From contig JAQGEQ010000110.1 of assembly GCA_034620365.1 (NCBI GenBank), forward strand, positions 186,001-250,000: a stretch of DNA of 64,000 bases, in the 5' to 3' direction. Position 1 is the first letter of the stretch. Each line of letters begins with the position of its first letter. Under the pieces are notes generated by a model, which did no database searches, was not told where the DNA came from, and saw nothing but the letters and a program-made list of their open reading frames with translations. The stretch is from Pegea sp. RAD2-039. Taxonomy: Eukaryota > Chordata > Thaliacea > Salpida > Salpidae. Below are positions 30,104 through 53,699 of the stretch, piece by piece. The position numbers and the translations under genes were made by a program.

Positions 30104-30203
30104 ATGTTAAACCATTGACACAACAGCTCCCTCATCTAATTCTAATCAAAACATATTATTCGACCTCAGCAAATCTGTATCTGCTGAATTAGCCAAATTT
30201 AAA

Positions 30204-31433
30204 TTGGAAATTGCAAAGATGTTACCAAAATCAATGAGAAAATTTCTAGTTTGTCTAAATCAATGGATGAACTGGATGCCTCTACGAAGAAACAAGTCAC
30301 ATGGGCCTCGGTGGTCGGTGATCCCGGTTCTAACAAAAATGCTTAGTATGGTGCAGCTTCTTGCTAAGAAGGTCACCGACACGCACAAAAAACTCACTTT
30401 AGACCGTGAGTACAGAGAAAACAATATCACCATCTTTAATATCTCTGAGACTGATAAAGATGATGACAGTAAATTTTTTAATCAAATGTGCTCTCGAAGC
30501 CTTGCTTTTGTGGACGTTTCAAAGGAATCAATGACTAGACTTGGAGCAAAAAGCTCAGATCATCAAAGACCGTTAAAAGTGTCCTTTCAGGAAAATTGGA
30601 ACAAACGCAAGTTTCTTGCCAAGTTGTATAAGCTAAGGCTTGACAAAAAATTCGAGCGCGTTAGAGTAGCACATGATATGTGTGAAGATGATCGCTTAGA
30701 AAATAAGCGTCTTCTAAAAGAAGCGTATAACCGAAATCAGAAGGAACAACCAACTGATTTTAAATACAAAGTTCGAGGTCCACCATGGGCCTTGAGAATT
30801 GTCAAGGTTTTTTTCAAAAAACGGAAGTGGCAAATAACCACTGGATCCACATCTTTTTTTTTCAAACTCTCTCCGCACACAATTATGAATACCCAAGATA
30901 TCAATTTACAGAAGCCCATCATCAAATCTCACAAGCATCAAAAAGACAATTCTTCTATCACATTAGGTATGTTCTTCAACGCACGGTCAATTATTAATAA
31001 AATTTTCCAATTGAAAGCTCTTTTGCATTCCCAAGACTTCACATTTATTTTTATTACTGAAACTTGGTCGAAACCGTTTTATCCTGATTCTTTTCTGGTT
31101 GACGGGAATCTTTTTTGTGTTTTACGTTGTGACAGACTGTATGATAGAGGCGGCGGTGTTTGCGTAATTTACAAAATATCGCTTGCACCCATGATCTCTA
31201 GAATTCAGATCGATACCAATAATTTTCCAGGGTGTGAGATTATCGCTTATGATTTTCATTACTCAAAGTCCAAATTTTCTCGTTTTATATGTACCAATCT
31301 ATCACCCTCTAAGATTAATGATGAAGTTACTGTTAAGGCCTTATTGAAGGTTCTGAAGAGTGTTGTGTGTCCTGAGTTATATACTTTGAGGATTTTAATT
31401 TTAGTAAAATTGATTGGAATAACCCGAATTTAG
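30204..31433 (+). pseudogene. LINE ORF1 C-terminal part running into endonuclease N-terminus
   Basis: A 409-codon open stretch. Residues ~70-200 match the RRM/C-terminal domain of LINE ORF1 proteins: RENNITIFNISE, RLGAKSS..QRPLKVSF and YKVRGPPWAL. An internal ATG at 30885 is a likely ORF2 start. From about 30970 the AP-endonuclease begins with FFNARSIINKI and FIFITETWSKP. The endonuclease is interrupted before its catalytic His near 31.43 kb. ORF1 and ORF2 being in one frame here may be a by-product of frame loss, not a fusion typical of the family. Confidence 0.65.
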
Positions 31434-31534
31434 CATTTATTGGAAAATCGTTTAACTTGGATTAAGATAATACTAATTCACCCTTTCTAAGTCATGCCTT
31501 TGTAAACTTCCTTGATGCCAATAATCTATCTCAG

Positions 31535-33073
31535 ATGGTTACTTTTCCGACCCAAGTTAGAGGTAAAACTTTGGATCTTCTTATCACATCAAAACCCGAG
31601 AACATTATCTATGTTGGTCAAAAAAAACCTTTTGCTCTGACATGCGATCACAACATGATTGAATTCAAGCTCCATCAAACTTTTTTTATGAGCGTTAAAA
31701 TTTCAAGCAAAAGGAATTTTTACTGTGGAAATTATACTGGCATTAACAAGTTTCTATCAGATGTTGACTGGATTTCTGTTTTCAACTCTTCCGAAGACAT
31801 CAATACTATTTACTCAAGGTTTACTAACATCGTTAAAGAGTCAATCGAAAACTTCATACCTTTTTATAGAGCCAACAAAAAACCACATTTACCCAAATAT
31901 TTAAAGAATTTACAACATTTAAAAAACCTCCTATACAAACAAATTAAAACAGACCCTTCCATCAAATCTCTGTACAAAGATCTTTGTATAGTTTACAAGA
32001 AATCTGTTTCTAATTTCTATTTAGGAAGAGAAAGTGCAGTTTTATCTTCACCTAGCAAGAGAACATTTTTTGGTTTCATAAATCGCAAGCTTAAGGCGAG
32101 ATCTCAAATACCTCCCTTACTTGATAACAGCGACCAGCTTGAGATGGAACCAGAAAATAATGCTGAGTTGCTAAACAATCAATTTGATAGCGTTTTTATA
32201 ACCGATGATGGCAATACACCTTCTCTCTCCTACTCCGATATTCTTACAAATGTCTCTGAGATGGTAGATCTTGACATAACGGTCAATATGGTATCTAAGG
32301 CTATTTCTTCTTTAAAATCATCAGTTTCCAACACCCCAGATCAGATCCCAGCTTTATTTTTAAGAAAAACTACTTCCTCCTTATCACTACCTTCATCGCT
32401 TTTCTTTAACATGACTCTGAGGCGAGGAAGAGTTCCACAAAATTGGAAGAAAGCTATTATTACTCTAATTCATAAAAAAGGTCCCAGAAAAACCGCACTT
32501 AACTACAGACCAGTTTCGCTGACTTCAGTTATCTGCAGAACTCACGAGCATATCATTCACAATCATATGACCAGTCATTTGATGGATCACCATCTAATAT
32601 CTGATGTCCAGCATGGCTTTGTGAAACGGAGATCTTCCTTGACTCAACATCTCACTTTTCTTAATGAGCTTACAGCCCATTATGAAAGTAATACTCCTCG
32701 TGACATCATATATCTCGATTTTGCTAAAGCGTTTGATTCTGTTCCACACACTAAGCTCGTTACTGTATTGAAAAACTCAAAAATCAACAGCTTTATCTTA
32801 CATTGGATTGAAGATTACTTATCAGGTAGAACCCAAAGAATTCGTGTAGAAAGATCTTTATCTACTTCTAGTCAAATCACTAGTGGTGTTCCTCAGGGTT
32901 ATGTTCTAGGCCCCCTTCTCTTTTTAGTTTTCATCGAAGACCTCATCAGAAGACTATTAGCAGTAGATGATGTCAGAGTGTTTGTGTATGCAGATGATAT
33001 CAAGCTATTATCTTGTAATCCTTCAAAACTTCAAACTGCGCTACACACTGTAGAAAACTGGTCTACGAATTAA
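31535..33073 (+). pseudogene. LINE ORF2: endonuclease end and reverse transcriptase
   Basis: 512 codons. The start (FPTQVRGKTLDLLITS, then CDHNMIEF) is the end of the AP-endonuclease with the SDH-like catalytic motif replaced by CDH. The RT domain follows with NWKKAIITLIHKKG, NYRPVSLTS, QHGFVKRRSS, IIYLDFAKAFDSVPH, GVPQGYVLGPLLF and VFVYADDIKLLS, the standard non-LTR RT blocks. Similarity is to the CR1/Jockey/Rex1 group. The frame stops just after the catalytic palm, before the thumb. Confidence 0.85.
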
Positions 33074-33292
33074 ATTCCTTGAACCAATACTCCATCAGTA
33101 AATTTATTATTCAACGAGTATCTTCAGTCCTAGACCTTGGCATTACTCTATCATCTGACTTTAAATGACAGAGTTATGTTTCCAAAATCTTTGGAAAGTC
33201 AATCAACCTTGTCTTCCTTATTATAAGGACCTTTAATTCTAAGGACCCATGCTTTTTTACCAATCTTTTCAAATTGTACGTACGTCCAATTC

Positions 33293-33562
33293 TTGAATAC
33301 AATGTTAGTGCATGGATGCAATATCAAGTTGGTGATATCAAAAAACATCGAATCCGTTCAGGCCACATTTACGAGATTAGTATGCAGGAAACTTAATATT
33401 AAATATGATAGTTATAAACATCGTCTCAGTTTCTTCAATTTAGATACTTTGGAAATTCGACGGATTAAATGCGATTTAATTCTTATTTCTAAAATTATCC
33501 ACAATTTAATTGACATTCAGTTTGATGATTTCTTTTATATTAGTCCTTCCCTCAAGTTATAA
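33293..33562 (+). pseudogene. LINE ORF2 C-terminal segment
   Basis: 89 residues with the C-terminal pattern of this LINE group (IESVQATFTRLVCRKL, then RLSFFNLDTLEIRRIKCDLI). It is in a different frame from the RT part. The same segment is found in the truncated copy at 47.46-47.66 kb with a few changes. Confidence 0.65.
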
Positions 33563-33906
33563 CAGCTCAGACGACACACATTACATCTTAATAAGCCTAT
33601 ATCACCCAGTACATTGGTCAGAGCAAATTTTTTCTCATACCGCACAATTAGTATATGGAATCAGCTGCCATCAGACATTGTCATGTCGAAGTCGCTCGCG
33701 TTGTTCAACAAGAAGTTGAACCGTTGTAATATTGCCAACATTGTCATTTCTAAACTGTGTTTTTTTTTTATCTTTTTTATGTTATTAACATTCTATGTAA
33801 TTGTTCACTGTCATATGCTTTGAGTGATATTGAAATGCCATGTGCTACATCTTTTACTTTCTATATTTTTGACTAAATAGATGTTATTTGTGAGAATGTG
33901 TGTTAG

Positions 33907-33934
33907 CGGGAGGTGCTCTTTTCAGGCACCCTCC
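33907..33934 (+). repeat. LINE 3'-terminal stem-loop
   Basis: GGGAGGTGC and GCACCCTCC flank an 8-9 nt loop and can pair with one bulge, forming a GC-rich hairpin just before the 3' end in otherwise AT-rich DNA. The other LINE copy has the same hairpin. In stringent LINE groups such 3' hairpins are what the reverse transcriptase recognises. Confidence 0.55.
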
Positions 33935-33959
33935 TTTGCATTTATCGAAATAAGTAATA

Positions 33960-41792: not shown

Positions 41793-42421
41793 ATTTCTAT
41801 TAAAACTTGTTTTATGAAGACTCTTTCAGCTTTATTTAATGTAAAATGAATAATATTAAAGATTTTAACGATAATCAAAAAATGGTTTTAAGTTTTTAAT
41901 CCTTTAATTACTACTTGGTACATTTACTTATTGATAAGTTCAGATTTTTTCAGAAAGTCGTCAAACGTTTAAAAAACTTCTTGAAAAGAATTTATGTTTG
42001 AATCGTTAATCATCCCAAATAGTAATTATTTCAACTTGTTGAAAGATTTGAACATCTTTCTACTAAACATCAAAAAGAAGTGTAGTTGATATCAAATCAG
42101 GGTGTTTATTTGCGATTAGTTAAAACATTTGAATACTTACATTAAATGATAAAATCAATGATTTTATAATGATTTCTTTACATTGTGCAAAAAATGTCTT
42201 GTAGTCGTACGCTTTTAGATAGTTACCTCAAAATGACATTTTAATCTTTCATCTAAAGAGGTTTAGTTTGTTAAAAATCCTTAAAAAATGGAAAACTCGA
42301 AGAATATGTTCAAAAGCTGAAATATTTTAGTTAGAATATTTTAAATGTAAAAGCTGATAGAAAACTTATTAACAGAATTTATCTGAGTATATAAGCGCTC
42401 TTATAGTAATTTATCTTCAGC

Positions 42422-45400
42422 TTAATTTGCTGAAGTCATCTTCACTCCAGTTGAAGATGAAGATTGTGGGCGTGATTTATTAAACTTTTCCAATATCCAT
42501 TCCTGAACCTTTTTCTGGAAACAGCAATGAAACACAAAAATTGCCAATCCCTGTAAAAGAACAAAGATTACTGATTAGCTATTGCACTTAAAAGTTTCGA
42601 TAGCTAACTTGAAAGGAATTAGTGATTGAAAAGATGACAGCAAACAGCTCTTTTGCTGTTTTGTTCTTTGAAATCAGCATCAAATAGCCGAATATCCAAG
42701 GAATACCAAGAGCAAACAGCATTGAAACCGCCCTCTTCGTAGCGACCATAAACTCATCAAAATTCGATTTTTTACTAAACTTCTAACAAACATTAAGTAA
42801 GATATACAAAAAATCAAAACTTCATCAATTACTCTACTTTTCTAATTGAAGTATATTGTGTTAAAAATCAAGTGAGCCAATTTATATTCTTTAATTAGAT
42901 CTTATAGAAATTACAAACAGTAAAATTTCTTCACTTACTTTTCTTCCACAAGTGATATTATACAAAGAGATAACAAAAACAATGATGTTGAAGATGAGAA
43001 CAATCGCAATCGGAATGACTACAAAGAACAACATAGGAGAAGCAGATAGCCAACAAAATCGCTCACTACGATACTCATTACTAGTCTCAAGAAACACTGC
43101 AGTTGGAACAACAATAATAGCTGGAATCACTGTATAAGAAACAAAAGTCAAATGGTTGAGTGATTTGAAAGTAATCTTCAAAATCAGTTTGTCTATTAGT
43201 GGATGCTGATATTTTGAAGATGCTAATATTTAGATTAATAAATACAAAACATAAATATAAAATTCATTGTCAATAAACTAACAAAAAGTTTAATATTTCA
43301 ATCAACCTTTAATTTTTACTATCTTCATCTAACAACTATCAAGTCTTAAATATTTGAACTTACAGTAACAGCAAGCAGTTGAAATAAAAAGAAACTTTTT
43401 TTCATTAGTTGGAGCAATCTGGATTTTCCTCAAAACGAGGTATCTAAAGAGAAATATTCCTTCCACAAGATGCCACCACCACGACACTAGTAAGAAGTAG
43501 TGCAAGGAAGCAGTAAAGAGTAAACATTGCATGTGATTGTCTTTAGCATCGATGCCAATGAGAAAAATAATGTTGAAAATTAAAAGAGACATTGAGATGT
43601 TGACAAGGATTTGTTGTGGGAGCTTTGATCTGAGCTGTCTGTAAGAAGATTTGAAGATAACTCAGAAGTTTATTGAAAGTTGAACAGAAAATATTTGAAC
43701 AATCAAGTACTGACTTCAAGTAGATGTTAATAACAACCGTCACCAACAAGAAAGCAATTGAAAGCGAACATCCAATGTAAGTGACAATTGATAAGTAATT
43801 AGGAAAATATGTTTCAGTGATATCCTTACAAAAACAAAACTTGAAAATGACTCGTTCAAAATGTCAACTTACCAATATAACAGCAAAATGAGTCATATGT
43901 CGACAATTACAAACTACTTCATCCGGTGTAGCACCTAAACTCAATTCACAACCATCGCTCTTCCAAGAAGATAGCTGAAAATCCCAATAAGAACATCTTT
44001 GTATCTTTTTCCATCTCATATCTCCATCGATGTACTCATCAGAAGACTGCTCTATAAACTTCTTCATCTTCTCGTTCTTTTTTATCAGGATCGAAACCAA
44101 ATTGTTCTCAGGGATTTTATTAATCACTTTAATAGGTGTTTTGAGGTTTGAAACATCTTTACCTTTGACACTAACAGATAAGATATGACTCAAAATCACT
44201 GGCTGGTGAAAGTTCTCGTTTCCTAGCAACCAGTTCTTTTTCTCCAGCTGTTGTGCAGCTTCAAAAATCGATGCATCGTGATAAACTACTGACGTCACAT
44301 TTAACTGGTTGTCAATAGAGCTCTGGTTAGAGAGCTCCTGTAAAAGGTCAACTTCCAAAATTGCATAAGAAGATTTTTTTAACGAGTTGCTTCTAATATT
44401 GTTCTTCCAGATCGTTAGACTTCTTAGATTTGAAACTCTGAGAGCTTGCATTTGAAAGTCTGAATATTTGATCTTATAAGTTCTCTGAAAAGTTGAACAA
44501 ATCGTGAAAATTATTTAAATAGAAAAAGTCGGAAAAAGTTTTTACATTTTCAAAGTTGTAGTTTTCCAAGGAGCACTCAACTATCAGCAAGACTTCATTA
44601 ATCTTTTTCGGATCATTTGCAAGTAGATTTTCGGTTGACGTCATTGAGATATTTTGCATTTTCTGGGCCAAATTATTGAGATCTGTTCCGCATGTTGTAA
44701 CATTTATTGAAAAGTGCCTTACTACTGATCCAAGCAACTTGGAAACTTCTGTACGATTAGTAACTTGAAAAAATAGAAAATTTTCAAATTTCGAATTAAT
44801 TTGGAGGATTTTCTTTTACAAATTTCATATTTGTTTTTAAATTTATTTCTGTACAATTTACCTGTATTTTGACAAATAAAGCATTTTTGTTGTAAGCAAT
44901 ATGCATTTTGCCATTCAGCACCACGCGATAGGTTGATACATAAACCTTCATCTTTATAGGGTTCTTCGCTATCAAAGTTATCATAGCTGCAAGCAATATA
45001 TAGTAGAAGTTGCCTCCTGTAAACTTATCAATACCTTACACCCCTCTTCCACTTAGTTTTATTATTCCATAAACCAGATACCAAAGAATTGTTGTTAAGT
45101 TTCAAACCAATCCATATTCCATCAGAAGCTTTGTCAAAATTGTGTATTTTTTTATTGATAACAAATCTTTTCACTAAAAATTGAGTTTCTCTATTTGTAA
45201 TTTCAGCTAGTTTTGAACCACCTTTGATACAAATAGAAGCTGCTTTATTGTAATTTGCAGCTTTAGAAGATAATCTGAATCGAATATTATTCGATGTAAT
45301 AGAAGCTTTGAAATTGTCATTTGAAATCCATTTTACATCTGAGCAGAACACTAAAAATAGAAATCAATTTCATTTAGAATTCAGTAGCTTTAAAAGTTAA

Positions 45401-45489
45401 TCACAAAATTTACAAAATGTTATTTATGTTGACATACCTCTTGTAAGTTGAAAGTAGATAAAATATGAAAACAAAATTACTTTTTTCAT
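42422..45489 (-). CDS. Adhesion GPCR with C-type lectin domain, copy 1, complete, 733 aa
   Basis: Ten exons, all GT-AG: 45489-45438, 45350-45035, 44986-44862, 44763-44546, 44484-43873, 43824-43715, 43638-43364, 43129-42939, 42782-42609 and 42550-42422. Order: signal peptide (MKKVILFSYFIYFQ); C-type lectin domain in exons 2-3 (WIGLKL, then GLCINL...AEW...CFICQ); GAIN domain in exons 4-5; GPS (SYWDFQLSSWKSDGC...CNCRHMT, cleavage predicted between M434 and T435); seven helices in exons 6-10 (TM6 FALGIPWIFGY, TM7 SFQGLAIFVFHCCF). These are cell-surface receptors with a self-cleaved ectodomain acting as tether for a signalling 7TM part. The ligand is unknown. It faces its twin at 50.6-53.6 kb head to head. 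The lectin part differs strongly from the twin, while the rest is almost the same. No usual EPN/QPD sugar-binding motif is seen. Confidence 0.93.
44862..44986 (-). other. Divergent lectin exon 3 of adhesion GPCR copy 1
   Basis: 125 nt in the same phase as its counterpart at 51087-51211 but with about 17 of 41 residues shared, mainly the fold-defining Cys, Trp and hydrophobic positions (C-I-L, AEW, N, C, FICQ). The flanking introns are also unalike. It codes the long-loop half of the C-type lectin domain, the usual ligand-contact surface. Confidence 0.85.
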
Positions 45490-46282
45490 ACTTAAACGTC
45501 AAACTTAGTCAAGTATTTTGCTAAAAACTTATTTAATAAACTGTAAAATAAGTGGCTTTATTTAACTACTTTAGTAAGCTATGGTAAGGACATAATTAAT
45601 ATAAAAAAGCTTGTTTTATGTTCCAAATAAGACTACTACTTTATATGATACTTTGATAAATTGTTGTGGAGTAATTAGATATCTTGAAATTGAAAAATTT
45701 CACAAAAACTTTTTGGTACAAAACTTCAAATGAATAAAAAGATTTAATATCATGATGCCAGCCTCAAGTATTGTGATATGTACCCTCTACCAGGTACTCA
45801 AAGTACTGAGATGGTGAACAGTTGAAAGTTTTATGCTGATCTGAGCTAGATTTAAGATTCATCTTAAGTTATCTTTTGATACTTTAGAAATCAGAATGCC
45901 AAATATGCTACAAATCAGAACCAAAATTAAAATAGTAAAAGGTTTCTTGGCAATCAGTAGAGACGCAGTCCTTAAGACAGATGAAAACTTACAGCACAAT
46001 TGAATTAAACCTGTCTGGTTACCAATTAATTTCAAAAATAGTAATTAAGCTTCATAAAAACTAGATATAATTTCTTTAAATGAAATAGATCCGAAAAGTG
46101 GTTTCAACAAACTCAAATTCTTCAATTTGTAAATTCATAATGCATTTAACCTGTTTAAGATGAAAACGGAAATGTCGTTTTTTTCATGTGGGACCGTGAA
46201 ATGACAAACTGGTATTACGCAAAAGGTTGCTCTAAATATAATTAGATTAAATAGAAAATTATCTGAAGAAAAACAGAAGAGT

Positions 46283-49200
46283 ATTACGAATGTCATTAAA
46301 AGAAACATGACAACAAACTTGACTCATTTTCTAAACAAACAAATCTAACAAGTTTTAAACTTTTTGCGGTTTAAAAATATTTTAATTCTAAAATGAAAAC
46401 TTTTCAATCTTAATGGAAGGAAGTTTCGAAAATCTGTAAACAATTTTTTGTACTTAGGTATTGTATATTGTAATGATAAAACATAAAAAGTGATTTACTC
46501 ATTTCCTATATATACAGAACTTGATTTAAGTTCAGTTTTGGTTTTATCTTTTAGTTATGATGAGTTTAAAAATTTGTATAATAAAATAATAATAATTTTG
46601 TAATTTTAAATTAATTTCAATTTTGATAAAAAATGAAATCGAGCTTCAGTCTAAACTTTTAAATTACCATCTTCTCCTTTCTTGAAATATTGCTGGATAC
46701 ATATGAGATGTGAAATCTTCATATTAATGACTTCACAGGACTTCTGGGTGACAAAGATAAAAAAGAAGTAATATTACCAAAACAATAGCATTAAGTATCA
46801 TCAATAAACTTTCAAAGTATTAAACTTAACATTGTTAAATTAGGAAACTTTACAAATATTGTTTTGTTTTATATACAATCTAATTTTAACTTTAATACCT
46901 TTAACCTTTAAGACGATGTATCCAAATAGTAGCAAAATTTAGCTAATTCATGATTAGGTTTTTATTGAAAGTTATTCAACTCTGATAAAAACTTTATTTT
47001 ATTCATTTTTATTTACTTATTTCGATAAATGCAAAGGAGGGTGCCTGAAAATAGCACCTCCCGCTAACACACATTCTCACAAATAACATCTATTTAGTCA
47101 AAAATATAGAAAGTAAAAGATGTAGAACTTGGCATTTCAGTAGTCCTCAAAGCATATAGCAGTGAACAATTACATGGAATGTTAATAATATAAAAAAGAG
47201 AAAAAAATCACAGTTTATAAATGACAATGTTGGCAATATTATACCGGATCAACTTCTTTTTGAACAACGCGAGCGACTTCGAGATGACAATGTCTGATGG
47301 CAGCTGGTTCCATGTACTTATTGTGCGGTATGAGAAAAAATCGCTCTGATTAATGTGCCAGGTGATATAGGCTTATTAAGATATAATGAGTGTCATATGA
47401 CTTGAGGGAAGGACTAATGGAAAAAAAACATCAAACTGAAGGTCAATTAAATTGTGGGTAATTTAAAAAATAAGAATTAAGTCGTATTCAATTCGTCGAA
47501 TTTCCAAAGTATCTAAATTGAAGAAGGTGAGACGATGTTTATAACTATTGTATTTAATATTAAGTTTCCTGCATACTAATCTCGTAAATGTGACCTGAAC
47601 GGATTCGATTTTTTTTGATATCACTAACTTGATATGGCATCCATACACTAACATTGTATTCAAGAATTGGACGTACGTACAATTTGAAAAGATTGATAAA
47701 AAAGCATAGGTCCTTAGAATTAAAGGTCCTTATAATAAGGAAGACAAGGTTGATTGACTTTCCAAAGATTTTGGAAACATAACTCTGTCATTTAAAGTCA
47801 GATGATAGAGTAATGCCAAGGTCTAGGACCGAAGATACTCGTTGAATAATATTAACTTTAAAAAATAACATACGAAATCAAAATATCTTTATATATTATA
47901 TTTAATGTAATATTTAAAGGCAAAACCAGCAGCACTAATATTATTTACGGAGTATTTTCTTAAAAGAGTAAATAGAAAAATAAGAGTTTTTAAAAGAGCG
48001 CGTCAATCCAAATGTATTTTTGCAAGAAGAATATTGAGTTATCAAATTGAATTTCTGTGTTCTTGGTAATTTGATTTTTATCTGGAGTTAGTTTTACATA
48101 TCATTTGAAAAGGTTGTTTTAAAATTGACCAAAACATATAAACATAATGTTCTAAATTTTCCAAACTTGAGATAGTTTTAGGTTTTTATATTCTCTTTTC
48201 AATGTTTAGTAACATTTATATGTTAGTTTATAGAAAAATTTAAAGTTTTCAAAAAAATTGTTTACTGATTTTACGGGGTGACTTTTTTACTAAAATACTT
48301 CTCACTTTTTCAATTTGCGAGATTATTTGCTTATTATAAATGTAAATTCTAATTTGAGGATTATATAAGAATATCTTAATAAAAATTATTTAAATAAAAT
48401 TAGTGTAAGTTTCAGAAGACAAAGCCAAAAATTAGAATTATTTAGTCTCAAATCTATTAAAACTCCGTTTTAAGGATTAATCTTTTGAAGACTATAGTTT
48501 TAATTTTCTCTTCGATCGAGCCAAATACAAACTTAAAATAATTTTGTAATACGAGTATTGAATATTTCAAATAATTTTTTGTCTGTTCTATCAAAGGTTT
48601 ATAGAATATATGTTATTCTAAACCATTCTGATTCTTATTTTTCATCACTGCAAAAGCAGCATTAAAGAAATAATCTTTTGCTACTAAACTATTCCAAATG
48701 TTATCTACTCATGCTCTTAGGGTTTTAAAAAATGTGCAACAAAATTAAATCAAAATAATATCAAATAAATATGGTGGTAAAAACTTACTTGGTCTTAAAA
48801 AGGTGATGATAAAGCTTTTATCATGGAACATTTTGGTTTATATTAATGAAAATGATGGCAAGAACCGGTGTTGAAAAGTTGACTAAAAAGGAGTAAATTT
48901 TGTTAATACATGTTTAGCTTGCTGAGGATGAAGCAACGGATTTCAGGTTTTTGTGAAAATATAAATTTGATAAATTTAATTTAGATTTGAAAATATGGTA
49001 AACTAATCTGTTGAAAACGTAATACAGAGTAGTTATTGGAATTTTAAATAAGCATAAAGTACAATAGATTAAAGAACTTAAAAGTACATAAAGATATTGA
49101 TTTTTTTATATAGTCTGTTCAGTTTTCTTTAATATTTTGTTTCAAAATAAAATAATCAAATCAAATTCAGATATAAATTAAATATAGAAGAATATAAGAA

Positions 49201-49795
49201 GAGTTATACATTTATCGGACTATACTCATATAGAAGATATTAGATTTAAAATGCTCATATAACGAATAGCTGTTTTTTTATCTTTTCATAATAAAAGGAT
49301 TGAAATATAACTTGCAGTTATACTGGTTATTACACTAAAAGAGATGTTAATTTATGTTTCTTAACTAAGTTCGTTTTAGACAAATAGCATTTACTTCTAG
49401 CAGAAAGCAATATGAAGTAGTTATTGTTATCATCAATTTGCTTTAAACATTTTTTTTTACTTAATTGAAGCAAATAAATAATAAACGGTTAGACTTTTAT
49501 TAATTAGAAACCGCTTTCTTTTCAGACTTGAATAACTTTAAATAAAGGCATCAATTACTAGAAGTTCATCTACAAACTTAAATAATAACAACTTATTAAA
49601 GTTACATGTAAAAAATTAAATAAAGTATGTATAGAAATTTATAAATATTTCTTATTTATTTGTTTTTTTTTCTTTATTTCAAATATAACAAACTTTATCG
49701 ATTTCAAAACTTTCTTATAAAATGAAATGAAAAGTTTTTCAAATACCCACATGAAGTAAAGATATTAATGAAGAAAATGTGGTAGGAAAAATTAA
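46283..49795. other. Spacer between the inverted repeat arms
   Basis: About 3.5 kb of AT-rich DNA that is not palindromic. It holds the truncated LINE copy at 47.0-47.86 kb. I see no further gene and no leftover lectin exon. Both receptor promoters must be in the arms or at the spacer edges. Confidence 0.6.
47014..47855 (-). mobile_element. 5'-truncated LINE copy, same family as the 29.8-33.96 kb element
   Basis: About 840 bp matching the last part of the first LINE in reverse orientation, from ATTATTCAACGAGTATC to the terminal hairpin and AATAAGTAA end. The fragment MNTMLVYG... is close to the 33.29 kb counterpart, with IESVQ and FNLDTLEIRRI kept. The clean 3' end and missing 5' part are typical of incomplete target-primed reverse transcription. 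Confidence 0.85.
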
Positions 49796-50588
49796 ACTCT
49801 TCTGTTTTTCTTCAGATAATTTTCTATTTAATTTACTTATAATTAAAGCAACCCTCTGCGTAATACCAGTTTGTCATTTCACGGTCTCACATGAAAAAAA
49901 CTACATTTCCGTTTTCATCTTAAACAGGTTAAATGCTTTATGAATTTACAAATTGAAGAAATTGAGTTTGTTGAAACCACTTTTCGGATCTATTTCATTT
50001 AAAGAAATTATATCTAGTTTTTATGAAGCTTAATTACTATTTTTGAAATTAATTGGTAACCAGACAGGTTTAATTCAATTGTGCTGTAAGTTTTCATCTG
50101 TCTTAAGGACTGCGTCTCTACTGATTGCCAAGAAACCTTTTACTATTTTAATTTTGGTTCTGATTTGTAGCATATTTGGCATTCTGATTTCTAAAGTATC
50201 AAAAGATAACTTAAGATGAATCTTAAATCTAGCTCAGATCAGCATAAAACTTTCAACTGTTCACCATCTCAGTACTTTGAGTACCTGGTAGAGGGTACAT
50301 ATCACAATACTTGAGGCTGGCATCATGATATTAAATCTTTTTATTCATTTGAAGTTTTGTACCAAAAAGTTTTTGTGAAAGTTTTCAATTTCAAGATATC
50401 TAATTACTTCACAACAATTTATCAAAGTATCATATAAAGTAGTAGTCTTATTTGGAACATAAAACAAGCTTTTTTATATTAATTATGTCCTTACCATAGC
50501 TTACTAAAGTAGTTAAATAAAGCCACTTATTTTACAGTTTATTAAATAAGTTTTTAGCAAAATACTTGACTAAGTTTGACGTTTAAGT

Positions 50589-53500
50589 ATGAAAAAAGTA
50601 ATTTTGTTTTCATATTTTATCTACTTTCAACTTACAAGAGGTATGTCAACATAAATAACATTTTGTAAATTTTGTGATTAACTTTTAAAGCTACTGAATT
50701 CTAAATGAAATTGATTTCTATTTTTAGTGTTCTGCTCAAATGTAAAATGGAATTCAAATGACAATTTCAAAGCTTCTATTACATCGAATAATATTCGATT
50801 CAGATTATCTTCTAAAGCTGCAAATTACAGTAAAGCAGCTTCTATTTGTATCAAAGATGGTTCAAAACTAGCTGAAATTACAAATAGAGAAACTCAATTT
50901 TTAGTGAAAAGATTGTATCCATATTTAAACCAATCAAATTTAGCAAACACTTGGATTGGTTTGAAACTTAACAACAATTCTTTGGTATCTGGTTTATGGA
51001 ATAATAAAACTAAGTGGAAGAGAGGTGTAAGGTATTTCAGATTGAAAGGTTATTTATTATATCATATTTTGTTGCTTTATCTACAGTTTTCACTATTTTA
51101 CTCATGGGCAGCCTGAACAAAGATTTGGGTCCTGTATTCATCTGTGGGTAAACGCAGAATGGGTTAACAGCCGCTGCAGCTACAAAAAGTATTTTATTTG
51201 TCAAGACAAAAGTAGGTTGATATAAATTATTTTGTTTTAAGATCATGTTTTTAATAGCCAGCATTTATCGGACATAATAATTGATGATTGATTTACAGTC
51301 ATGCGCAAAACTGAAGTTTCCAAGTTGCTTGGATCAGTAGTAAGGCGCTTTTCAATAAATGTTCCAACATCCAGAACAGATCTCAATAACTTGGCCCAGA
51401 AAATGCAAAATATCTCAAAGACGTCAACCGAAAATCTACTTGCAAATGATCCGAAAAAGATTAATGAAGTCTTGCTGATAGTTGAGCGCTCCTTGGAAAA
51501 CTACAACTTTGAAAATGTAAAAACTTTTTCCGACTTTTTCTATTTAAATAATTTTCACGATTTGTTCAACTTTTCAGGGAGCTTATAAGATCAAATATTC
51601 AGACTTTCAAATGCAAGCTCTCAGAGTTTCAAATCTAAGAACTCTAACGATCTGGAAGAACAATATTAGAAGCAATTCGTTAAAAAAATCTTCTTATGCA
51701 ATTTTGGAAGTTGACCTTTTACAGGAGCTCTCTAACCAGAGTTCTATTGACAACCAGTTAAATGTGACGTCAGTAGTTTATCGCGATGCATCGATTTTTG
51801 AAGCTGCACAACAGCTGGAGAAAAAGAACTGGTTGCTAGGAAACGAGAACTTTCACCAGCCAGTGATTTTGAGTCATATCTTATCTGTTAGTGTCAAAGG
51901 TAAAGATGTTTCAAACCTCAAAACACCTATTAAAGTGATTAATAAAATCCCTGAGAACAATTTGGTTTCGATCCTGATAAAAAAGGACGAGAAGATGAAG
52001 AAGTTTATAGAGCAGTCTTCTGATGAGTACATCGATGGAGATATGAGATGGAAAAAGATACAAAGATGTTCTTATTGGGATTTTCAGCTATCTTCTTGGA
52101 AGAGCGATGGTTGTGAATTGAGTTTAGGTGCTACACCGGATGAAGTAGTTTGTAATTGTCGACATATGACTCATTTTGCTGTTATATTGGTAAGTTGACA
52201 TTTTGAACGAGTCATTTTCAAGTTTTGTTTTTGTAAGGATATCACTGAAACATATTTTCCTAATTACTTATCAATTGTCACTTACATTGGATGTTCGCTT
52301 TCAATTGCTTTCTTGTTGGTAACGGTTGTTATTAACATCTACTTGAAGTCAGTACTTGATTGTTCAAATATTTTCTGTTCAACTTTCAATAAACTTCTGA
52401 GTTATCTTCAAATCTTCTTACAGACAGCTCAGATCAAAGCTCCCACAACAAATCCTTGTCAACATCTCAATATCTCTTTTAATTTTCAACATTATTTTTC
52501 TCATTGGCATCGATGCTAAAGACAATCACATGCAATGTTTACTCTTTACTGCTTCCTTGCACTACTTCTTACTAGTATCGTGGTCGTGGCATCTTGTGGA
52601 AGGAATATTTCTCTTTAGATACCTCGTTTTGAGGAAAACCCAGATTGCTCCAACTAATGAAAAAAAGTTTCTTTTTATTTCAACTGCTTGCTGTTACTGT
52701 AAGTTCAAATATTTAAGACTTGATAGTTGTTAGATGAAGATAGTAAAAATTAAAGGTTGATTGAAATATTAAACTTTTTATTAGTTTATTGACAATGAAT
52801 TTTATATTTATGTTTTGTATTTATTAATCTAAATATTAGCATCTTCAAAATATCAGCATCCACTAAAGGACAAACTGATTTTGAAGATTACTTTCAAATC
52901 ACTCAACCATTTGACTTTTGTTTCTTATACAGTGATTCCAGCTATTATTGTTGTTCCAACTGCAGTGTTTCTTGAGACTAGTAATGAGTATCGTAGTGAG
53001 CGATTTTGTTGGCTATCTGCTTCTCCTATGTTGTTCTTTGTAGTCATTCCGATTGCGATTGTTCTCATCTTCAACATCATTGTTTTTGTTATCTCTTTGT
53101 ATAATATCACTTGTGGAAGAAAAGTAAGTGAAGAAATTTTACTGTTTGTAATTTCTATAAGATCTAATTAAAGAATATAAATTGGCTCACTTGATTTTTA
53201 ACACAATATACTTCAATTAGAAAAGTAGAGTAATTGATGAAGTTTTGATTTTTTGTATATCTTACTTAATGTTTGTTAGAAGTTTAGTAAAAAATCGAAT
53301 TTTGATGAGTTTATGGTCGCTACGAAGAGGGCGGTTTCAATGCTGTTTGCTCTTGGTATTCCTTGGATATTCGGCTATTTGATGCTGATTTCAAAGAACC
53401 AAACAGCAAAAGAGCTGTTTGCTGTCATCTTTTCAATCACTAATTCCTTTCAAGTTAGCTATCGAAACTTTTAAGTACAATAGTTGATCAGTAATCTTTG

Positions 53501-53640
53501 TTCTTTTACAGGGATTGGCAATTTTTGTGTTTCATTGCTGTTTCCAGAAAAAGGTTCAGGAATGGATATTGGAAAAGTTTAATAAATCACGCCCACAATC
53601 TTCATCTTCAACTGGAGTGAAGATGACTTCAGCAAATTAA
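50589..53640 (+). CDS. Adhesion GPCR with C-type lectin domain, copy 2, complete, 729 aa
   Basis: Ten exons: 50589-50640, 50728-51031, 51087-51211, 51299-51516, 51578-52189, 52238-52347, 52424-52698, 52933-53123, 53280-53453 and 53512-53640, all GT-AG and in phase. The architecture equals copy 1: signal peptide, C-type lectin domain (exons 2-3), GAIN, GPS with HMT (predicted cut between M430 and T431), 7TM, short Ser-rich tail. The GAIN/GPS exon differs from copy 1 at 3 of 195 compared residues, exon 7 at about 3, and exon 8 at none. Exon 2 holds a 13-residue tract (from LYPYLNQ) where copy 1 has 17 unrelated residues; exon 3 (GSCIHLWVNAEW...YFICQ) is only ~40% identical to copy 1. The frame is open throughout, so both copies look functional. 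An AATAAA lies at 53981-53986. Confidence 0.93.
51087..51211 (+). other. Divergent lectin exon 3 of adhesion GPCR copy 2
   Basis: 125 nt, same length and phases as exon 3 of copy 1 (44986-44862), with conserved lectin-fold residues but otherwise different sequence. The unlike tract runs from the end of exon 2 through this exon and into the next intron, roughly 51032-51310. After that both copies become near-identical again. Confidence 0.85.
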
Positions 53641-53699
53641 GCTGAAGATAAATTACTATAAGAGCGCTTATATACTCAGGTATATTAAGATGATTACAT

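Follow-up and report, generated by a model that had tools for sequence, protein, structure and literature searches.

The window analyzed here, a 64-kb stretch of contig C236, contains two receptor genes, designated A and B, that are almost identical except in two sharply bounded islands within the region encoding their C-type lectin domain. Inside the islands 158 of 302 aligned positions differ, compared with 46 of 3581 (1.3%) elsewhere (Fisher P about 2e-151), and chance or a uniform rate of change is out of the question as their source. The explanation favored here, to which about an even chance is given, is that A and B are an old pair that has been homogenized by gene conversion except in two recognition islands, which are either under selection or blocked by heterology. 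The genes, the islands and the homogenized sequence between the islands are as follows.

42422..45489, minus strand: gene A, ten exons, 733 amino acids, intact open reading frame (gene model with GT..AG introns throughout; Pfam)
50589..53640, plus strand: gene B, ten exons, 729 amino acids, intact open reading frame (gene model with GT..AG introns throughout; Pfam)
45115..45163, minus strand: island 1 of gene A, 49 nucleotides (nt) in exon 2 (MAFFT alignment of the arms)
50915..50951, plus strand: island 1 of gene B, 37 nt in exon 2 (MAFFT alignment of the arms)
45030..45114, minus strand: homogenized middle of gene A, 85 nt, 84/85 identical to B
50952..51036, plus strand: homogenized middle of gene B, 85 nt, 84/85 identical to A
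44753..45029, minus strand: island 2 of gene A, 277 nt, exon 3 being 44986-44862 (alignment and gene model)
51037..51309, plus strand: island 2 of gene B, 273 nt, exon 3 being 51087-51211 (alignment and gene model)

Extent of the islands

In island 1, 20 of the 37 aligned positions differ and there is a 12-nt indel, with 17 residues in A and 13 in B following the shared ETQFLVKR. Island 2 takes in intron 2 minus its first few bases, exon 3, the whole of intron 3 and, in exon 4, the first 11 nt; A and B differ there at 138 of 265 aligned positions. Both genes have an exon 3 of 125 nt in the same phases (2 in, 1 out), and 16 of its 42 residues (38%) are identical. An earlier, sequence-only reading of this DNA had described twin genes alike save for two sharp tracts, the 17 versus 13 residues of the exon 2 tract, a near-identical stretch of about 85 nt between the tracts, and an exon 3 of constant length and phase with about 40% residue identity; the alignment agreed on each of these. 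Its size for the second tract (about 270 nt) also held, but the tract does not stop part-way through intron 3 as had been proposed.

The background had been put at a few percent, which proved too high, and it is neither uniform nor evenly spread. Outside the islands, differences fall in clusters (scan statistic P 0.004-0.007). By zones whose limits were chosen post hoc, they number 10/170 at the inner end of the repeat, 7/121 just 3' of island 2, 4/187 in exon 2 before island 1, 1/85 in the middle and, for the bulk of what remains, 2/762 and 22/2256. Tests of distance to the islands, which were designed after the data had been seen, gave P 0.19 at 60 nt and 0.006 at 90 nt. The sequence-only reading had held that a smooth gradient of divergence along the arm would count against an exchange of segments; the edges of the islands were mostly sharp.

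Domains of the two receptors

The order of domains is the same in both genes: a signal-like N-terminus (judged by eye), a C-type lectin domain, a GPS and a seven-transmembrane (7TM) region. The Pfam matches were Lectin_C 1.4e-8 and GPS 2.8e-11 in A, and Lectin_C 1e-10 and GPS 2.8e-11 in B. The 7tm_2 domain (PF00002), by which an adhesion G-protein-coupled receptor (GPCR) of class B2 is recognized, was matched at 1.9e-34 in A and 7.4e-35 in B. In each gene the GPS (PF01825) directly precedes the 7tm_2 match, and its sequence, CNCRHMTHFAVIL, is identical in the two; no GAIN model was among the Pfam scores for A or B. The consensus for GPS cleavage is H-L-T/S, and the site reads H-M-T in A and B alike. 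The C-type lectin-like assignment follows from PF00059, the conserved cysteines, WIGL and the invariant alignment columns, all found in both genes. The lectin profile matches PLA2R, LY75 and mannose receptors in the PDB (among the best 60 of 100 matches), and both versions of exon 3 keep the cysteine and tryptophan residues of the lectin fold. This domain content identifies A and B as C-type lectin adhesion GPCRs.

Across the 7TM part, 281 of 285 residues are identical between A and B; with a GPS that is also identical, the two receptors should signal alike. One of the few transmembrane differences lies in the SWSW stretch, at 43477 (A) and 52585 (B), where A has tryptophan and both B and the nearest paralogue have serine. 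This change is possibly functional.

In sugar-binding relatives, the C-terminal part of the C-type lectin domain holds the Ca2+ and ligand site. The classical sugar-binding motifs are EPN or QPD, together with WND, and the EPN/QPD position separates mannose-type from galactose-type sites. By domain homology, on which their status as a functional region rests, the islands would extend over the last part of helix alpha-2, the latter half of the long loop and the ligand-site strands. The first half of the long loop falls within the homogenized middle, so the ligand face differs only in part. The motifs for Ca2+-dependent sugar binding are incomplete, reading EPY and WQN in A and QPE and WVN in B. 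The EPN/QPD position thus differs between the two genes, but neither carries all of the Ca2+ motifs, and any sugar binding may be by another mode. The earlier description of one signaling module joined to a differing recognition domain stands in both its parts, and the ligands of A and B probably differ. The roles in self/non-self, gamete or microbe recognition that it suggested are hypothetical.

Age of the islands

The age of the islands was considered by comparing A and B with each other and with their nearest paralogue, on contig C97. In exon 3 the synonymous sites of A and B are saturated (21.3 of 21.8 differ; proportion of synonymous differences, pS, 0.98), with a nonsynonymous proportion (pN) of 0.40; the 7TM exons, by contrast, have a dS of 0.011 and a dN of 0.006. 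Introns 2 and 3 are no more alike between A and B than shuffled sequence (z 0.07 and 0.86), against z of 12-20 for introns 1, 4 and 5; introns 6-9, outside the shuffle test, are 0-5% different. Such saturation, set against a 1.3% background, bears out the earlier claim that point mutation since the arms last matched fails to explain the islands. The comparison of dN with dS that had been suggested gave no call for positive selection in exon 3.

The paralogue gave the same picture. Residue identity in exon 3 is 16/42 (38%) for A and B, 16/42 (38%) for A and C97, and 20/42 (48%) for B and C97. Elsewhere, that of A and B is 95-100% in exons 1-2, the middle, and the GAIN and 7TM segments, where C97 is 42-58% identical to them; at the start of exon 4, A and B are 81% identical. 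For the GAIN and 7TM segments alone the values are 98-99% between A and B and 57-58% between either of them and C97, and in the middle only 15 of 27 residues of A/B are shared with C97. Since exon 3 of A is as distant from that of B as it is from C97, the split between the islands is about as old as that between the A/B and C97 genes, the remainder having been shared recently. By these measures the islands represent old, constrained divergence, which requires neither hypermutation nor positive selection after a recent duplication.

Paralogues and the search for a donor

The sequence-only reading had supposed that other lectin-GPCR paralogues exist, and they do. All ten exons of the C97 gene were modeled, in the same phases as in A and B; six are as long as their counterparts in B, and for the remaining four the difference in length is 3-12 nt. 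A further lectin-GPCR paralogue was recognized on C293 from exon matches, and a receptor on C258 has a weak lectin match (E 0.9). A rearranged partial copy of the C97 receptor lies on C14 (locus L029), with exon 2, GAIN and transmembrane pieces that are very C97-like by eye; it is apparently a pseudogene. The same stretch carries a long open frame of tandem repeats (LWVSGCGSVVVGQ-like units; L029 3-710, minus strand).

The genome searched comprised 105.7 Mb in 387 contigs and contained at least 123 Lectin_C matches. Donors were sought with the left arm, both islands with their flanks as DNA, and three protein queries (joined or single-exon). No DNA match to either island was found beyond the twins themselves, in a search that scores only the best candidates and skips very common words, so that absence is unproven. 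As protein, exon 3 of A matched only that of B (41%), and exon 3 of B best matched C97 (48%) and A (41%). Taken together, the searches turned up the twins themselves, the genes on C97 and C293, and general C-type lectins with weak matches, and the exon-3 donors whose existence had been suggested did not emerge. Paralogue DNA is about 66-72% identical where alignments are long (one 46-nt piece reaches 87%), and flanks of such identity would be a poor substrate for homologous exchange. Import from a known family member is disfavored by these two results together. Had the import been recent, a near-identical donor would be expected to remain; if there was a donor at all, it is more likely to have been another allele or copy of the same gene.

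Sites at which two of A, B and C97 agree against the third were also compared. A and B agree at 5 of 21 such sites in the islands and at 284 of 294 in the flanks (P 3e-16), a result that restates the mosaic and in which residues 167-168 of B belong to neither set. In a tree test with A, B, C97 and C293, the island columns (67) slightly favored B with C97 and the non-island columns (90) A with B, but none of the three topologies was rejected by either set; the island sites are too few to show which of A and B, if either, is native.

Other lectin gene pairs

A non-random sample of other lectin gene pairs served as controls. Two near-identical inverted pairs, one on C22 with its genes about 16 kb apart and one on C19 with a distance of about 190 kb, hold 96-100% identity per 100 nt throughout their lectin regions and have no island. 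Four loci form a cluster on C30, from which four pairs were profiled. In three of these, the region of the second lectin exon falls to 73-95% per 100 nt, against mostly 90-99% immediately upstream, and similarity drops further downstream of that exon; the fourth pair holds 93-99%. No sharply bounded, saturated island was seen in the four C30 pairs profiled. Divergence near lectin exons may not, then, be confined to the pair in the window.

The control loci are of some interest in themselves. L036/L037 (C22) and L038/L039/L040 (C19, C77) are inverted or dispersed copies of lectin genes that align over about 6-8 kb at 96-99.5% identity. L041-L044 (C30) show a patchwork of identity, with 100-nt windows from unalignable to 100%, which suggests exchange among the copies.

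Genomic setting

The window has a GC content of 27%, a value compatible with the 25-31% of published assemblies of monogonont rotifers (PMC11954553). Genes A and B are arranged head to head in the inverted repeat, whose arms adjoin a 3513-nt spacer. Each arm comprises about 0.8 kb of upstream sequence, the complete ten-exon gene and 46 nt past the stop codon, and the sequence outside each arm is unrelated.

42376..46282, minus strand: left arm, carrying gene A (inverted repeats I1, I2 and I3, and MAFFT alignment of the arms)
49796..53686, plus strand: right arm, carrying gene B (inverted repeats and MAFFT alignment of the arms)
46283..49795, no strand: spacer between the arms, 3513 nt, containing a fragment at 47013-47851 that resembles a long interspersed nuclear element (LINE) (inverted-repeat search)

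A LINE-like element with long endonuclease- and reverse transcriptase-like open reading frames (by eye, with no family search) lies at 30111-33957, about 9 kb from the left arm. The spacer fragment matches 33105-33957, on the 3' side of this element, in inverted orientation at 91-95%. A search of a phage collection gave no match, and a scan of viral contigs for relatives gave four loci with only a 33-residue, 49% match, which was regarded as chance.

Proposed gene conversion and the alternatives

The favored explanation can be set out in steps. A and B would be lectin-type adhesion GPCRs that have long stood as an inverted pair and evolve in concert. Between the close inverted arms, ectopic gene conversion would keep the sequence outside the islands (the upstream region, the first exon, most of exon 2, the GAIN/GPS region, the 7TM exons and the accompanying introns) about 99% identical. 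The two lectin islands would evade homogenization because loss of the difference is selected against and because homologous repair that starts in the flanks can no longer copy sequence that is about 50% different. The outcome would be two receptors with one signaling module and two long-separated specificities.

Counted in favor of this explanation were the saturation of the islands, the shuffle-level alignment of their introns, an exon 3 that is no closer between A and B than to C97, the intact open reading frames with conserved cysteine and tryptophan, the lack of any donor found, the clustering of differences, the absence of islands from the C22 and C19 pairs, and the comparable patterns described for the opsins and proposed for GOT1 (see below). 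If old differences survive near the limits of conversion, clustered divergence outside the islands is to be expected, and the clusters seen in the alignment fit such limits better than a single recent duplication. We infer that conversion, not recent duplication, made the arms alike, and that selection maintains the islands. Of the two mechanisms offered in the sequence-only reading, conversion sparing a selected region was the better fit.

Several points weigh against this explanation. The 85-nt middle is homogenized like the flanks although it lies between two heterologous blocks; single long conversion tracts account for it poorly, and if it was converted alone, either a very short tract or repeated historical exchange is required. 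The distance tests were post hoc and uneven, with 7/10 of the excess on one side. In a neutral variant, diverged blocks may suppress conversion without selection, as excerpts of PMC3728101 indicate. The comparisons were all made within one genome, and the pair itself is only presumably old. Finally, an old allele captured after a recent duplication is almost as good a fit.

That last alternative is the main rival and is possible, though distinctly less probable than conversion. Two old balanced alleles at one locus would have been joined by a recent inverted duplication or by conversion, and recombination between the alleles would have kept the flanks and the middle alike. Repeated allelic recombination explains the homogenized middle more easily, the flanks of the donor would have been near identical, as homologous exchange needs, and neither a donor nor a third copy of the arm was found in the apparently haploid assembly. 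Against this, the saturated synonymous sites require very old alleles, and this alternative does not predict the cluster of differences at the inner end of the repeat. The 1.3% divergence of the arms would also be well above the heterozygosity of 0.0016 that an excerpt of PMC3495898 gives for one gene, should the animal be a Brachionus.

A more specific proposal combines elements of both explanations, and we consider it rather improbable: a two-specificity locus, at which two lectin specificities, whose split is about as old as that of the paralogous receptor genes, sit side by side on one constantly homogenized signaling receptor. Its maintenance by balancing selection or by protected conversion is a similarly doubtful proposition.

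It is unlikely that a recent inverted duplication was followed by import of both segments into one copy from another lectin-GPCR or lectin family member. The differences are sharply bounded at most edges, exon 2 of B has the length of that in C97 (304 nt), and the islands of B are somewhat closer to C97, with which B agrees at 11 sites and A at 5. Intron 3 has a weak B-C97 similarity (z 2.99) that tops the island-intron comparisons. Since B is nearer to C97, A could be the copy that carries foreign segments. The preference is not significant, however (binomial P 0.21; AU P 0.19 for the A+B grouping), and two separate events would be needed around 85 untouched bases. The donor search, empty at both the DNA and the protein level, and the low identity of paralogue DNA also tell against import, and the exchange with other family members proposed in the sequence-only reading was not borne out.

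An assembly artefact, in which two haplotypes or a fold-back read were joined as an inverted repeat, is very unlikely. The assembly does contain other near-identical inverted lectin pairs, but here the arms are separated by a 3.5 kb spacer and bordered by unrelated outer sequence, where fold-back artefacts would have no spacer, and both genes are intact. Were the copies haplotypes, the islands would still be real and would favor the allelic alternative. It can practically be dismissed that the lectin exon was diversified by local hypermutation or by a retroelement, in the manner of the diversity-generating retroelements of bacteria, of which C-type lectin folds are classic targets: a LINE-like element and its fragment do lie nearby, but the introns have diverged equally, synonymous change exceeds replacement change per site, the substitutions in exon 3 are of all types rather than restricted to adenine (A/G 16, C/T 15, A/T 11, A/C 10, C/G 6, G/T 5), and no template copy of either island was found in the searches of the genome.

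Comparison with known systems

Selected divergence peaks between converting duplicates are already known. The red and green opsin genes of primates are arranged in tandem, whereas A and B are inverted. In the opsins, as excerpts of the source describe, a divergence peak in exon 5 is kept by selection under gene conversion (PMC3924837). Like A and B, the pair consists of adjacent GPCR duplicates that are near-identical save for the segment that sets specificity. Cases of the opsin/RH type are marked by a peak of divergence that is confined to a functional region and flanked by near-identical sequence, and A and B have such a peak. The opsins differ by a few substitutions, whereas the islands of A and B are saturated, about 50% different in nucleotides and accompanied by unalignable introns; A and B also have two islands around a homogenized 85-nt core, and their specificity would lie in the ectodomain and not in the 7TM region. 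Papers on the LWS opsins of fish also mention inverted duplicates and gene conversion (PMC2732921, PMC2527612).

Divergence peaks kept by selection between converting duplicates have also been proposed for GOT1p1 and GOT1p2 of Tigriopus californicus, which, in the part of the account available, are linked duplicates with exonic islands of divergence amid conversion-homogenized sequence (PMC3728101). GOT1 is an enzyme and not a receptor, and conversion there was shown by population data, whereas here it is proposed from the sequence of one genome. In ruminant CEACAM32 and CEACAM1, conversion tracts leave out the exons that encode a surface receptor's recognition domain, as they would in A and B, but the domain is Ig-like, and the leader exon and introns convert (excerpts of PMC7042247). 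A lectin joined to an adhesion-family GPCR is known from amphioxus, whose adhesion GPCRs include some with a Lectin C-type domain; no paired mosaic divergence was found in the excerpts describing them (PMC2246102). No passage on C-type lectins was found in the available portions of an adhesion-GPCR review or of papers on choanoflagellate and sponge GPCRs. In the adhesion GPCR and C-type lectin literature, searched by title or the start of the abstract, no published account of a pair of this type was found, nor did the library searched yield a paper that brings together gene conversion, an inverted repeat, balancing selection and a lectin receptor, which leaves absence unproven. The hallmarks of diversity-generating retroelements, a template repeat and adenine-directed change, were lacking in A and B, for which no second copy of the islands was found and the substitutions are mixed.

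Among the cases compared, A and B are extreme in the depth and sharpness of their islands. With about 50% divergence inside and about 1% outside, they are a clear-cut and extreme example in which recognition surfaces seem to evade concerted evolution. In Brachionus, mate recognition involves a glycosylated protein and a receptor on males, according to excerpts of PMC3495898. If the animal is a monogonont rotifer, which its base composition and genome size would allow, the male receptor for this mate recognition protein is one candidate role for A and B among several. The islands point to the segments of adhesion-GPCR lectin domains that are likely to set specificity, and the two genes form a natural domain-swap pair for finding ligands in a little-studied type of receptor.

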